Shown: one piece after another, positions 49,370 through 55,001 of the stretch | Numbering within the stretch: the stretch's first letter is position 1 | Layout of the letters: each line of letters begins with the position of its first letter | Assembly (NCBI RefSeq): GCF_004762035.2 | Contig: NZ_SIJK02000021.1 | Coordinates: 1 to 64,000 of the forward strand | Direction: 5' to 3' | DNA: 64,000 bases | Origin: Candidatus Chloroploca mongolica | Lineage (GTDB): Bacteria > Chloroflexota > Chloroflexia > Chloroflexales > Chloroflexaceae | The notes under the pieces: generated by a model | What the model was told of the DNA's origin: nothing | Database searches by the model: none | The model's input: only the letters and a program-made list of their open reading frames with translations | Position numbers and translations under genes: made by a program

Positions 49370-50371
49370 TCAAGCATGGTCGTGTTTGCCGAGCGCGGCC
49401 AGCGTCCTACGCAAGCCTTCGGGAGTAGTAATCCGCGGGCTATAGCCAAAGTCGCGCTTGGCTGCCGAGTGGTCAAACCAGTGGCTGATGCCCATCTGGT
49501 TGACGGTAAAACGGGTCAGTGGCGGTTCGCGGGTGATGCCGAGGCCCCGATAGACCGCTTCGATGCCGGTGGTGAGGCGCAGCGCCGTGCGTAACGAGAT
49601 GGAGCGGCGGACTGGCTTGTAGCCTGCGCCAGTAATCACTTCGTTGATGAAGTCCCAGAGGTTCACTGGTTGTTCTTGACCAATGAAATAGGGGCGACCC
49701 CGGAGCGGCGAGCGTTCACTCAGAGCATCGGCGGCTTGCAGATGCGCCTCGGCGGCATTCTCGACATAGGTAATATCGGCGAGATTGGTGCCATCACCAA
49801 TCTGGATCAGGCGACCGCTGCGCGCACGGGCAATGAGGCGCGGAAAGATATGCGGATCGCGTGGCCCCCAGATAAGGTGGGGCCGAATGGCAACCGTCGC
49901 AAGCTCACTGCGGCTCAAGACAAAACGCTCGGCAAGGGCTTTGGTCGCCGGATAGGGTGCAAGATAGCGCTCGGGATAGGGCGTGCTCTCATCGGCACCT
50001 TCGAGATCGGTTTCGCCGATCACCACCGATGGGGACGAAGTATAGACAAACCGTGGCACACCTGCCCGCTCGGCAGCGCGTACCAACCGCTGGGTTGCCG
50101 TCACATTATTCACATAGAACTGATCAAACGTGCCCCAGACGCTTGCCTTAGCAGCGACATGGAAGACAACTTCAACGCCTTGCAGCGCTTTCGCAAGAGG
50201 CAGCGCCACATCAGGGCTACTCAGATCAGCACGAACACACGCAACCCCAAGCGCCTCGAGTTCAGGGTACGGGTTACGCCCAAGCACACGGACACGGTCA
50301 CCGCGTGCGAGCAACTGTTCAACGATGTAACGGCCAAGAAAACCATTGCCACCAGTGACAAGTGTTAGCAT
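49370..50371 (-). CDS. oleD: OleD-like NAD(P)-dependent reductase
   Basis: A 333-residue extended short-chain dehydrogenase of the 3-beta-HSD type. The nucleotide-binding TGGNGFLGRYIVEQLL is at the start. The catalytic YPATK is near residue 140, with serine in YTSSPSVV. In olefin biosynthesis OleD reduces the beta-keto acid made by OleA to a beta-hydroxy acid. The neighbouring OleC-like ligase and OleB-like hydrolase support this over other uses. It is the last gene of the set, 166 bases after oleC. Confidence 0.8.
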   Translation of the reverse strand: MLTLVTGGNGFLGRYIVEQLLARGDRVRVLGRNPYPELEALGVACVRADLSSPDVALPLAKALQGVEVVFHVAAKASVWGTFDQFYVNNVTATQRLVRAAERAGVPRFVYTSSPSVVIGETDLEGADESTPYPERYLAPYPATKALAERFVLSRSELATVAIRPHLIWGPRDPHIFPRLIARARSGRLIQIGDGTNLADITYVENAAEAHLQAADALSERSPLRGRPYFIGQEQPVNLWDFINEVITGAGYKPVRRSISLRTALRLTTGIEAVYRGLGITREPPLTRFTVNQMGISHWFDHSAAKRDFGYSPRITTPEGLRRTLAALGKHDHA

Positions 50372-50472
50372 CTATTGCTCCGCAGCATTCAAATCGGGCT
50401 TGCGCCAAAAGAAGTCAATTTGTGAGGGCCTGGGTGCGCGGGCGTCCCGCATGCTGATCGATAGCCGTCTTC

Positions 50473-50503
<31 letters not shown>

Positions 50504-50537
50504 CCCGCGAACCCATCACCTGAAGATGGACGAAGTA

Positions 50538-52340
50538 CTAGCCATCTTCTTCTGCTTCCTCCGCAACATGAGGAGTCTGGAGACTCTGGGCGAGCGGCAT
50601 CGTTGAGCCAGCCGGGATGCCAGGTTGACTGAGTGCCCAGACAGCGAGTTGTTCACGGAAGATTTTGGCATTGTGACGAATATCAACCGGGAACGATGGA
50701 TGGAGAAGAAACGTCATGATCCCCGACGTCATTGGATAACGGCCACCAAGCTCCTGGAGCTCGTGCAGCAACGCTGCTCCGGCACTGCGATCGCGCAGCA
50801 GAGAGCGGTCTTTTGGCTCGACAATCACAACCGGCTCTTGATAACCAGCAGGGCCAACGCCAACGAGGGCGCTCCGCGCCACAGCGGGATGCTGGTTAAA
50901 GATCAGTTCGATCGGTTCGGTGTAAAGGGTCCCGTGCAAGCGTCCGGTCTCGACCCGATGGCTCTTGCGGCCATAGAACCAGACCCGGCCCTCGTCATCC
51001 AGATAGCCGAGGTCGCCCATCCGGTGCCAGACCTGATCGCCTTCGTGGATCTTGGCTTGCGCGGTTGACGTCGGGCGACTGATATAGGTTTTGGTCACCG
51101 AGGGGCCTTTGACCACCAACTCACCGATCTGATGGGCGGGCAAGGCAAGGGCTTCATCCCAATGTTCAATTGGCTCATCGCTGACCGGAATAATGCGCAG
51201 CGTCACCTCGGGGGCCGGGAAGCCGACACAGGTACCGGCAGTCGGATCGGCCCCCCGCGCAGCAATCGCCGCGAGCACCTCACGCCCACTGATCGACGTA
51301 ATCGGCAAGGCCTCGGTCGCACCATAGGGCGTATGGGTATCGCTAGTCTCGTCCAGGATCTGACGGAAGCGCTCGTGAAGATCCGCCGGCACGGGCGCAC
51401 CGGCCATCAACACACGCCGTAGACCAGGCAATTTCACCTGATGTTCCAGACAATAGGCCGTCACCTTGCGCCAGATCGCGGGCGAACCAAAGGTCGAGGT
51501 CACCTTCTGATCCTGCATAAAGGCAATCACAGCCGCAGGATCGCAACTGGCGGGGCGGGTGGGATCAATCGGCGGGATAGCCGAGGTACACCCGAGAGCC
51601 ACATTGAAGAGCGAGAAGAGCGGAAACGCCGGCATTTCAACTTCACCTGGTTCGAGATGAAAGAGCGCCCGCAACAGCCGCACCTGGGCCTCAAACATCC
51701 CGTGCTCATAGAGCACCCCCTTGGGGACACCGGTGCTGCCGGTGGTAAAGATGATCGCTGCTGGCTCGTCAGGCGAGACCTGGGCCAAAGCAAAGGGCGC
51801 ATTGAGCGGCACACTCAGATCGGCGAGGTTGAGATCACCAAGGGGCGTAAAACGCGAACCAACGGTGATACTGCGTTGCACGGTCCGAAACGCACCAGGA
51901 AAGAGGAGCCGCGCCAATTGCGCCCGCGCCACCCCGATCATCGCCTCGGGGGTACACTCCTTGATGCACTGGATCAAATTCCGTCGCCCCATCGCGGGAT
52001 CGATGAGGATCGGCACCGCCCCGACCTTCATCAACGCAAAGGTGAGACTGATCAACGGCAGACCGGCAGGAACCATCGACAAGACCCGAGTACCCCGTTC
52101 GATCCCAAGCGCACTCAACCCCCAGGCATAGCGGTCGCTCACCAGGTTTAACTCGGCGAAACTCAAGCGCCGATAGACCGTCTGCCCGGCGCGATTTTGC
52201 CCATCGCCCATCACAATCGCCGTCTGCTCGGGGCGTTCGCGGGCCATCAAGGGAAGATAGCGTGCAATATTTGCCCCTGGAGGGGCTGAACCATAGAAGG
52301 AGTCGTCGTGGATTGTGCGATCAGAAGACGCATCTGTCAT
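50538..52340 (-). CDS. oleC: OleC-like AMP-dependent ligase (beta-lactone synthetase)
   Basis: A 600-residue member of the acyl-CoA ligase superfamily. The ATP loop IIFTTGSTGVPKGVLYEH is near 190. TPYGATEALP and GDLGYLDDEGRVWFYGRK follow. The C-terminal domain is compact, with HNAKIFREQL holding the late lysine. OleC uses ATP to close the beta-hydroxy acid into a beta-lactone. The start MTDASSDRT was chosen because AAAGGA lies upstream. Readings that begin further upstream overlap oleB. Its place between oleB and oleD supports the role over a CoA ligase. Confidence 0.83.
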   Translation of the reverse strand: MTDASSDRTIHDDSFYGSAPPGANIARYLPLMARERPEQTAIVMGDGQNRAGQTVYRRLSFAELNLVSDRYAWGLSALGIERGTRVLSMVPAGLPLISLTFALMKVGAVPILIDPAMGRRNLIQCIKECTPEAMIGVARAQLARLLFPGAFRTVQRSITVGSRFTPLGDLNLADLSVPLNAPFALAQVSPDEPAAIIFTTGSTGVPKGVLYEHGMFEAQVRLLRALFHLEPGEVEMPAFPLFSLFNVALGCTSAIPPIDPTRPASCDPAAVIAFMQDQKVTSTFGSPAIWRKVTAYCLEHQVKLPGLRRVLMAGAPVPADLHERFRQILDETSDTHTPYGATEALPITSISGREVLAAIAARGADPTAGTCVGFPAPEVTLRIIPVSDEPIEHWDEALALPAHQIGELVVKGPSVTKTYISRPTSTAQAKIHEGDQVWHRMGDLGYLDDEGRVWFYGRKSHRVETGRLHGTLYTEPIELIFNQHPAVARSALVGVGPAGYQEPVVIVEPKDRSLLRDRSAGAALLHELQELGGRYPMTSGIMTFLLHPSFPVDIRHNAKIFREQLAVWALSQPGIPAGSTMPLAQSLQTPHVAEEAEEDG

Positions 52341-52359
52341 CAACATTTCCTTTGAAGAG

Positions 52360-53262
52360 TTATTGAGGATAATCCTCCCCAAAAAACCGTACGACACGCG
52401 GCACAATCTCTTCGTGCGCATCTTCAAGCACATAGTGTCCGGCGTCATCAAAACGGACAACTGATGCCGCAGGGAAGCGCTCGAGCCAACCGGCGAGAAA
52501 ATAGTCCGAGAAGCACCAATCTTTGCCACCCCAAAAGATCTGCATCGGCTTGTCGCGCACATTGACCAGATCGCGGTCAATGCCATCAACAACCGCCCAG
52601 GTAGGATGGCGCGGTGACATCGGAATATCGCGGACAAAGCGCTGGATAGCGACCCGATTCTCCCACGAATTGTAGGGGAAGAGGTAGCCCTGGCGCACCT
52701 CGGGTGACATCGGACGTTCGACGGCCATCACCGTCGCGGCGCCGGCGAACCCATTGAGGCCACGTACCGCCAGATCGCCAAAAATGGGGTATCGGCAGAC
52801 CGCGATGCGGAATGGCAGGCGGGGCGAGAGAAAAGCTGCCGTATTGAGCACCACAATGCGGCGCACTTGGTCAGCAAAACGGGTAGCCCAACCCATCCCT
52901 ATCGCACCGCCCCAATCGTGGACAACGAGATCGAGCGGCCCAAGGTCAAGATGTTCCATCAGACGCGTCAGGTTGCCAAGATGATTCTGGAGCGTATAGG
53001 CATAGGTCTGGGGCTTATCGGAAAGCCCGCAGCCCATATGGTCAGGCACAATGACCCGATGCGTAGGGCTGAGCGCAGCAATCAGATGGCGATAATAAAA
53101 CGACCAGGTCGGATTGCCGTGAACCATCAGCACCGGGGGGCCAGAACCCTCATCAACATAGCTGATGGTACCACCGGGAACCGCCAGACGGCGCGTTTGA
53201 AACGGGTAGAGGCCGCGAAGAGGCGCAAGGTGGTCGGTACCAGAGAGCATTGTCTCGTGCAT
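52360..53262 (-). CDS. oleB: OleB-like beta-lactone decarboxylase (alpha/beta hydrolase)
   Basis: A 300-residue hydrolase of the haloalkane dehalogenase group. The oxyanion region is VHGNPTWSFYYRHL (near 47-60), the nucleophile aspartate is in VVHDWGGAIG (near 114), and the histidine is in DAGHYVLEDA (near 276). OleB converts the beta-lactone into the cis-olefin and CO2. The gene starts the minus-strand oleB-oleC-oleD run. Alone it would be called haloalkane dehalogenase, but the neighbours favour OleB. I find no OleA (thiolase-like condensing enzyme) next to it. Confidence 0.82.
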   Translation of the reverse strand: MHETMLSGTDHLAPLRGLYPFQTRRLAVPGGTISYVDEGSGPPVLMVHGNPTWSFYYRHLIAALSPTHRVIVPDHMGCGLSDKPQTYAYTLQNHLGNLTRLMEHLDLGPLDLVVHDWGGAIGMGWATRFADQVRRIVVLNTAAFLSPRLPFRIAVCRYPIFGDLAVRGLNGFAGAATVMAVERPMSPEVRQGYLFPYNSWENRVAIQRFVRDIPMSPRHPTWAVVDGIDRDLVNVRDKPMQIFWGGKDWCFSDYFLAGWLERFPAASVVRFDDAGHYVLEDAHEEIVPRVVRFFGEDYPQ

Positions 53263-53344
53263 ACAACTATCCCATAAGGTAGATCATTCGTAAGACGTAG
53301 TATAGCATAGGCAGGGCATGAGCAACGCCGACCCGACCGATGCG

Positions 53345-53403
53345 CCAAGGGCTACGCTGAAAATGGGGGAACGTGGTTCCCCCATTTTCAGCGTAGCCCT
53401 TGG
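53345..53403. repeat. Palindromic repeat P, copy 2
   Basis: Perfect 28-base arms (53345-53372 and 53376-53403) with a GTG loop. The central 53 bases match the palindrome at 14686-14738. Here it lies between the divergent oleB and radical SAM genes, so it is not acting as a simple terminator. Confidence 0.9.
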
Positions 53404-53519
53404 CAGTCATGCTCACAGTCTTGACAAGAGCTATAAAGAGTCGTAGGATAAAATCATCATGAAATCTGGCTTCAAGTTTGAAGCAGATCTCAGGTTCTTC
53501 AGTGCGTGTGGGAGGGCTT

Positions 53520-54674
53520 ATGATTGCTCAAGCCGTTGTCTACCGCATTTATGGTGATGCGCTTGCCGTCCTGATGAATGTCAAGACCAGGCAGGTGGCC
53601 GTGCTCCAAGGGCCGTCCCTCCAGTTCTGGAAAGAGTGCGTGCAGGCGGACGAACCGGATCGTCACCATCCCCTCTATGCTCGCCTGCAAAACCTTGGTA
53701 TGCTTGGCGAGCCTGCCGAACTCCCTCCGTCAAGGCCCCACGCCAACACCCGCGACGAGCATGCACACACCATTGATATCGGTGCCTTGCATCTCTGGGC
53801 GTTCAAGAACCATATCCCGCTGAGCGGCCACTTCGAACTGACCTCGCGCTGCAATTTGCGGTGTCGCCATTGTTACGGTCTTTTCGAGACCAAACAGGAT
53901 ACGCTCAGCACAGAACAGGTGTGCCGTATTCTTGATGACCTCCGCGACAATGGGACACTGGGCTTGGTGCTGACCGGTGGAGAACTCTTCTTTCGCAAGG
54001 ATATCCTTGATCTGCTGCGCTACCTGGAGGCGCAGAAGTTTGTGGTGCGGATCAATTCGAATGGTACACTGATCGACGAAACGGTCGTGCGTGCCCTACA
54101 GGAACTAAGCAATATCTACCGCATTCATATCAGCCTCTACAGTTCCGAGCCAGAAATCCACGATCAGATCACCAATGCGCCGGGATCTTATCACAAAACA
54201 CTGCACGCGCTGCATCTCTTGCGCGCAGCAGGCTTCGATCTGCGCATCAATTGTTCGGTGATGAAGGCAAATTACGCGACGTACCACAAGGTGCGCGACG
54301 AAATCGGTGATCCGCTGGGGATACCGGTTCACTTTGATACCGAGATCTTTCCCCGGGATGACGGCGGGACGGACAATCTCGTTGAGCGGCTTGATGCGGC
54401 GCAGTTACAGCAGTATATGCGTGCGCAGACGCGACCGAACGCGGCAGCACCCAAGCCAAAGCTCTGCCGAGCAGGGTTCTCCTTTTTCTCGATCTGCGAA
54501 GATGGTCGCCTGCTTCCCTGTTTGAAGATGAAGCGACTGTCGCGCTATCCGCTTGGTCGCCTGACCGAGCACTCGTTCGGTGAGATCTGGCAGGGCTCAC
54601 AAGCAGTGCTTACCCTGCGTGAGCACATCAATCACCAACTCGACGCGTGTGATCTGTGTGAGCTCGCCATCTGA
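53520..54674 (+). CDS. Radical SAM/SPASM peptide maturase with PqqD-like N-terminus
   Basis: A 384-residue protein. The N-terminal about 85 residues (YRIYGDALAVLMNVKTRQVAVL, LQFWKECV) look like a PqqD-type peptide-recognition domain. The radical SAM motif CNLRCRHC follows near residue 115, then GLVLTGGELFFRKD. The C-terminal SPASM-like region has cysteines in LCRAGFSFFSICEDGRLLPC and CDLCELAI, which would hold extra iron-sulfur clusters. Enzymes of this kind modify ribosomally made peptides. A 70-codon gene follows 24 bases later. GGGAGGG precedes the ATG at 53520. Longer readings start in sequence without a ribosome site. Confidence 0.85.
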   Translation: MIAQAVVYRIYGDALAVLMNVKTRQVAVLQGPSLQFWKECVQADEPDRHHPLYARLQNLGMLGEPAELPPSRPHANTRDEHAHTIDIGALHLWAFKNHIPLSGHFELTSRCNLRCRHCYGLFETKQDTLSTEQVCRILDDLRDNGTLGLVLTGGELFFRKDILDLLRYLEAQKFVVRINSNGTLIDETVVRALQELSNIYRIHISLYSSEPEIHDQITNAPGSYHKTLHALHLLRAAGFDLRINCSVMKANYATYHKVRDEIGDPLGIPVHFDTEIFPRDDGGTDNLVERLDAAQLQQYMRAQTRPNAAAPKPKLCRAGFSFFSICEDGRLLPCLKMKRLSRYPLGRLTEHSFGEIWQGSQAVLTLREHINHQLDACDLCELAI

Positions 54675-54698
54675 GATTACGCCAGTTAGGAGAATACG

Positions 54699-54911
54699 AT
54701 GTATGTGCAGACAACGATCACGCATAGCCTCGAAGCGGTTCTGCGTGAGTTAGACCAGCCAGCGCTGCCCGACAAGGATGGCATCATCGTATCAACGATG
54801 CATGACAAATTCTTCAAGGGCGGGGGGTGTGAGCACCACCGACTGGCCGAGGATGGCACCATCGAAAATGAGCCAGCTGTGACCAACATTGCGGTGTGCA
54901 TGCACGCATAG
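54699..54911 (+). CDS. Candidate RiPP precursor peptide
   Basis: A 70-residue peptide beginning MYVQTTITHSLEAVLRELDQ. An acidic, helix-prone first half (residues 8-30) could be a leader. The second half holds KFFKGGGCEHHRLAEDG and ends PAVTNIAVCMHA, with only two cysteines and a GGG stretch that could mark a cleavage or modification site. GGAGAATACG before the ATG is a good ribosome binding site. The coding density, small size and position right after a PqqD-fused radical SAM maturase suggest its substrate. I recognise no known family. Confidence 0.55.
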   Translation: MYVQTTITHSLEAVLRELDQPALPDKDGIIVSTMHDKFFKGGGCEHHRLAEDGTIENEPAVTNIAVCMHA

Positions 54912-54943
54912 CTGACCGAGTTGGAGGGTTCTGGGAGGGATCT

Positions 54944-55001
54944 CCCACCTCCTGAGCCTGGCTTTAGGCTGTGAACCATTTACCAGGCTCAGGAGGTTGG
55001 G
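54944..55001. terminator. Inverted repeat between peptide and amylase-pullulanase genes
   Basis: CCCACCTCCTGAGCCTGG at 54944-54961 pairs with 54983-55001 (one bulge) around a 21-base loop. It lies between the stops of two convergent genes, with no T-run, and may end both transcripts. Confidence 0.55.

Follow-up and report, generated by a model that had tools for sequence, protein, structure and literature searches.

A compact radical SAM maturase–peptide gene pair in Chloroploca is a probable minimal RiPP cassette

Two adjacent genes of the filamentous green bacterium Candidatus Chloroploca mongolica (Chloroflexota), one for a radical SAM enzyme and one for a 70-residue peptide, probably form a minimal, self-contained cassette for a RiPP (ribosomally synthesised and post-translationally modified peptide) in which a maturase of RRE–radical SAM–Twitch layout acts on a precursor of a new family, with a thioether as the most likely product. 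The pair lies in a 64,000-nucleotide stretch of contig NZ_SIJK02000021.1 (assembly GCF_004762035.2), referred to here as the window. It is real and rare, of a general kind that is already known and restricted to one lineage, and its precursor is absent from the family libraries searched. An initial annotation had read the locus as a RiPP-type pair; this reading is supported in substance, with the enzyme taken to modify the peptide.

The maturase gene encodes 384 aa and occupies 53520..54674 of the + strand (ATG 53520, TGA 54672–54674), the strand that carries all the cassette features described below. It is followed after 24 bases by the precursor-peptide gene (54699..54911; ATG 54699, TAG 54911; 70 aa), and both ORFs and their spacing are where the initial annotation had placed them. 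A ribosome-binding site, AGGAG (54688..54692), can be read from the sequence 6 nt 5' of the peptide ATG, and GGAGG is found upstream of the peptide start in Chloroploca sp. Khr17 and in G048, a genome from another genus of the same family. The claim that the 70-codon ORF is a real gene was upheld by homologues at the equivalent position in four genomes, by codon-position-3 bias of the substitutions and by a dN/dS of approximately 0.23–0.39, indicating purifying selection on a protein sequence (dS was above 1 for Chloroploca–G048 pairs). No protease, exporter or immunity gene was recognised beside the pair in the loci examined, in agreement with the earlier remark that no protease or exporter is adjacent.

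Maturase and peptide genes were adjacent in three Chloroploca species and in G048, a total of four genomes. Near-identical loci were present in C. asiatica B7-9 and Khr17, the maturase/peptide identities for these other two Chloroploca being 99/97 % and 93/84 %; the values for G048 were 72/57 %. Profiles of the maturase and of the peptide each matched the same four of 158 genomes of the class, and of 400 genomes of the phylum searched with a profile, four contained the peptide, with no further copies there. A contig scan with six peptide patterns, which is sensitive to close relatives only, gave two matches; this does not represent the full distribution because the six patterns are altered in G048. 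Homology between Khr17 and the window was confined to 53420–54939, comprising the promoter, the enzyme and the peptide, while C. asiatica was syntenic on the upstream side with homology ending downstream at 54942. The G048 pair is flanked by different genes than those in the window. The limited homology with Khr17 and the different neighbours in G048 indicate that the pair is an autonomous cassette of approximately 1.5 kb. When the proposed check for the small gene beside orthologous maturases was run, it was adjacent in every genome with the maturase, including the 72 %-identity copy, which lies in a different genomic setting. Plasmid relatives of the enzyme had only ~27 % identity. A phage origin was rejected, as the viral contigs held no relative of the peptide. 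A literature search on the pair or on RiPPs of Chloroploca returned no match in the library searched.

The initial annotation had recognised a radical SAM protein by its CNLRCRHC motif, and this assignment was confirmed: the enzyme matched Pfam Radical_SAM (5.4e-21), and the motif (CX3CX2C, residues 111–118; 53850..53873) has three cysteines that are invariant in 14 of 14 aligned relatives. The description of the tail as cysteine-rich and SPASM-like held for the presence of cysteines but not for a complete SPASM. Seven cysteines define a SPASM domain; in Twitch it is shortened and carries one auxiliary cluster (PMC6231123). Measured against the seven-cysteine motif CX9-15GX4C-gap-CX2CX5CX3C-gap-C, which provides for two auxiliary clusters, the tail (54465..54674, aligned with complete SPASM relatives) has the first four cysteines only, although the Pfam SPASM profile is still matched (8.8e-8). 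These four, namely Cys316, Cys334 within GX4-Cys334 and the CX2C at 377/380, are invariant in the four orthologues. Since only Cys316, 334, 377 and 380 of the motif are left, a SPASM cut down by sequence to the cysteines for one auxiliary cluster, the enzyme is Twitch-like, with cluster binding itself predicted. Distant Chloroflexota relatives (26–33 % identity) have a complete SPASM with CX2CX5CX2C and the last cysteine; the Chloroploca and G048 enzymes end directly after CX2CX4. The TGA stands in place of the residue preceding the third cysteine of CX2CX5C, which is the fifth SPASM cysteine.

Selenocysteine insertion at this TGA was considered because the genomes show a strong match to tRNA-Sec and carry genes of the SelB type (the SelB of G048 being a fragment below the cut-off) and because, past the TGA, G048 has cysteines at SPASM positions. 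In four of four genomes, the TGA and the peptide gene share a reading frame. In G048 (L056:9640-9700, − strand, compared with 54672–54698 of the window), reading on gives CDLCSLGI-TGA-CDGGCACGLSGPC, an exact CX2CX5CX3C continuation of SPASM if the TGA counts as an x residue (C-DGG-C). This pattern follows only one of the 509 TGA triplets in the 19-kb G048 locus, the maturase TGA itself. A search for a SECIS-like hairpin found folding that did not go beyond that of shuffled sequences (z 0.1, 1.3 and 2.1). The genomes G000 and G001, which include the species of the window, have a second in-frame stop past the TGA, and the post-TGA sequence is not conserved between species. Given the lack of a SECIS-like structure and of post-TGA conservation, and the second stop in the window's species, the sound reading of the TGA is as a stop. 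Read-through was rejected as the main reading on these grounds and because the peptide genes have their own start and ribosome-binding site. What follows the TGA in G048 may be left over from a complete SPASM tail or, alternatively, may reflect recoding.

The N-terminus had been called PqqD-like. This identity did not hold by sequence: hmmsearch against the PqqD profile with all filters off gave no match, and the hhalign score of 12.4 was within those of 100 column-shuffled controls (top 16.9), and neither these comparisons nor the Pfam results gave a significant PqqD signal in the sequence. The predicted fold, at moderate model confidence, is nevertheless RRE-like. Residues 1–64 (53520..53711; pLDDT ~56–81, whole-model mean 74.5) were predicted to contain beta5-9, beta15-20, beta26-30, alpha32-42 and alpha51-58, a beta-beta-beta-alpha-alpha order that would correspond to a small RRE lacking one helix relative to PqqD. 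The structural comparison suggested earlier for this region was carried out and aligned it with RRE-bearing RiPP maturases: full-length matches were SuiB (Z 23.6), SkfB (Z 22.7) and CteB, while for most other radical SAM proteins the structural alignment began at approximately residue 96. As the peptide is in frame with the maturase TGA, both could be modelled in one chain, which matched SuiB from residue 1 (Z 23.4, 330 residues, rmsd 4.9) and had peptide residues 2–17 as a helix of low confidence. Distant relatives have a stand-alone PqqD-like gene immediately 5' of the radical SAM gene, which is the position of the fused domain here.

The peptide matched no family in Pfam or NCBIfam, consistent with the earlier statement that it fits no recognised class. 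Three segments are conserved: SLE(A/D)VLREL, STMHDKFFKGGGCE and NIAVCMH. The first, SLEAVLREL in the window (54726..54752), is conserved in all four aligned genomes and is a candidate leader segment, for which a helix was predicted with low confidence in the fused chain. The other two are identical in all four genomes and hold the only invariant cysteines, Cys44 in STMHDKFFKGGGCE (54792..54833) and Cys67 in NIAVCMH (54885..54905); each is proposed as a core or modification site. Between the window and G048, all nine DNA differences within these blocks fall at third codon positions (six and three, respectively), and the chance of a 14-residue identical run such as STMHDKFFKGGGCE at 57 % overall identity is 0.004. 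The sequence that separates the two blocks has diverged freely. The invariant blocks also carry His, Asp, Lys, Phe and Glu, residues that are used by other radical SAM chemistries, and Trp is absent from all four precursors.

Upstream of the maturase, a consensus scan located a sigma-70-type promoter, TTGACA-17-TAGGAT (53421..53449; 10/12, with ~1 such site expected by chance in the region), whose hexamers and spacing are kept in Khr17 and C. asiatica. The interval between promoter and start codon contains a dyad, ATCTGGCTTCAAGTTTGAAGCAGAT (53464..53488), which is conserved in the three Chloroploca species and occurs as a single copy genome-wide, allowing up to three mismatches; it presumably acts as an operator or a 5'-leader hairpin. 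A perfect 29-bp inverted repeat with a 3-base loop (53344–53404) separates the cassette from a divergent hydrolase gene, and a different long perfect palindrome lies upstream of the G048 maturase. The genes at 49370–53262 (− strand) resemble an olefin (Ole) hydrocarbon pathway, with an OleD-like reductase, an OleC-like AMP ligase (684 bits to NF006754) and an OleB-like alpha/beta hydrolase. Downstream of the peptide gene, the hairpin that had been noted does exist as an inverted repeat (arms 54948–54961 and 54983–54996), but the conserved unit does not include it, because homology ends at ~54940 and the terminator scan omits it. It was rejected as a component of the system, being outside the segment conserved with both other Chloroploca species.

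Among solved structures, the best sequence match of the enzyme was SkfB (E 1.4e-12), which has the RRE, radical SAM and Twitch domains and forms thioethers from cysteine to alpha-carbons (PMC6231123). The new pair shares with SkfB/SkfA, the sporulation killing factor sactipeptide system, the RRE–radical SAM–Twitch order and a single auxiliary cluster (RRE and cluster being predicted for the Chloroploca enzyme) and a short precursor gene. It differs in that identity is ~20 %, the precursors are unrelated, no exporter or protease genes were seen in the Chloroploca cassette, and the auxiliary-cluster cysteines of SkfB form CX33CXC (PMC6231123) whereas those of the Chloroploca enzyme are at 316, 334, 377 and 380. 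NCBIfam cut-offs for sactipeptide maturases were missed (skfB 60.3 versus 300 bits, AlbA 82.5 versus 850, StsB 71.4 versus 625). SuiB, which acts on SuiA to give the Lys–Trp cross-link of streptide, had the highest full-length structural similarity, including the N-terminal domain (300 residues, rmsd 5.3), but has a complete SPASM with two auxiliary clusters; the chemistry of streptide is impossible here because the precursor lacks Trp. CteB, a SCIFF/ranthipeptide-type maturase, is an RRE–radical SAM fusion with thioether chemistry (RRE predicted and thioether proposed for the Chloroploca enzyme); unlike the latter it has a complete SPASM and an unrelated Cys-rich precursor, and similarity was lower.

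The nearest enzyme relatives found were in Chloroflexota clusters (e.g. L060, L068 and L074) with the same order of recognition domain, radical SAM protein and peptide, but with a separate PqqD gene, a complete SPASM, kinase and peptidase genes and unrelated precursors. In L060, L068, L074, L082 and L084 a PqqD-like gene, a complete radical SAM/SPASM gene, a short Cys-bearing peptide, an HprK-like kinase and often an S26-like peptidase recur; the precursors of these clusters vary and appear unclassified. Two further loci are on plasmids. Plasmid pTs417 of Candidatus Thiodictyon syntrophicum (L063:3773-9044) encodes a PqqD–radical SAM fusion followed by a second radical SAM protein, an amidohydrolase, YcaO and a TfuA-like gene. 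This cluster, RiPP-like and mixed, adjoins an IS66 element. Escherichia coli IncF plasmids and a Salmonella plasmid (L064:3566-5002) encode, close to insertion sequences, a 478-aa radical SAM/SPASM protein that has an additional N-terminal region; no obvious precursor is annotated there.

The peptide is very probably the substrate of the maturase, and the predicted structures suggest that its leader is bound by the N-terminal RRE-like domain. Which bond would be formed is less certain. A thioether is the first guess from the two invariant cysteines and the SkfB-like layout, and by analogy such chemistry at Cys44 and/or Cys67 has close to an even chance of being correct. Members of the family also form C–C bonds, epimerise residues or build cofactors. 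It is thus conceivable, if rather unlikely, that the cassette makes C–C cross-links (e.g. 3-residue cyclophanes at HDK and FFK in MHDKFFK, both of which are invariant), epimerises its peptide or yields a redox cofactor resembling PQQ or mycofactocin. The top structural matches include SuiB (C–C cross-linking), EpeE (an epimerase) and PqqE as well, and sequence clustering in this radical SAM subfamily is a poor guide to function and, likewise, to fold (PMC6231123). However, the best sequence match is SkfB, the location of both invariant cysteines within small invariant blocks suggests sulfur chemistry, and no NCBIfam equivalog was reached, the scores being far below the cut-offs for PqqE, the mycofactocin maturase (MftC), AhbD, NirJ and ScmE.

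Two other readings are less probable again. Maturation of a small protein that is kept in the cell as a protein cofactor or metal-binding protein, comparable to QhpC or to anaerobic-sulfatase maturation, is improbable: a 70-aa chain conserved at both ends, the lack of a recognised exporter or protease nearby and residues that, from their sequence, could bind metal (M34-H35-D36, C44-E45 and C67-M68-H69) are compatible with it, but the sequence between the blocks diverges freely and the peptide has little structure, at low confidence, in the fused model. Action on a small molecule such as a tetrapyrrole, in the manner of AhbD or NirJ and with the small gene as an unrelated downstream gene, is very improbable. 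AhbD, ScmE and NirJ2 were the top NCBIfam profiles, but at scores far under their cut-offs (AhbD 114.7 versus 500 bits), and this reading sits poorly with the strict co-occurrence and joint movement of both genes and with an additional N-terminal domain that structurally matches RRE-bearing maturases.

For the preferred RiPP cassette with a thioether product, the small gene would give a precursor whose leader, SLEAVLREL, is helical and whose core is conserved, and the leader would be captured by the RRE-like domain of the enzyme. The radical SAM core would then generate a 5'-deoxyadenosyl radical, to which a residue of the peptide core would lose a hydrogen, and the one auxiliary Fe–S cluster in the Twitch-like tail would assist bond formation. 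The product would be an intrapeptide thioether from Cys44 and/or Cys67, as in SkfB, which has an equal domain layout. Leader removal and export might perhaps be provided by unlinked cellular proteins.

It is possible, though doubtful, that the two-gene cassette represents a new RiPP class, with an undescribed cross-link pattern between MHDKFFKGGGCE and AVCMH, a new precursor family, a distribution limited to anoxygenic phototrophs of the Chloroflexota and perhaps a role other than that of an antibiotic, as a cofactor or in metal binding. The pair is a compact, probable enzyme–substrate system, consisting of one enzyme and one 70-aa peptide with apparently nothing else for the first step. As a further natural, predicted RRE–radical SAM enzyme with a Twitch-like tail, the maturase is useful for asking what role the auxiliary cluster has. 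The cassette also adds a precursor family that is missing from the libraries searched, in a phylum with little-studied peptide products.
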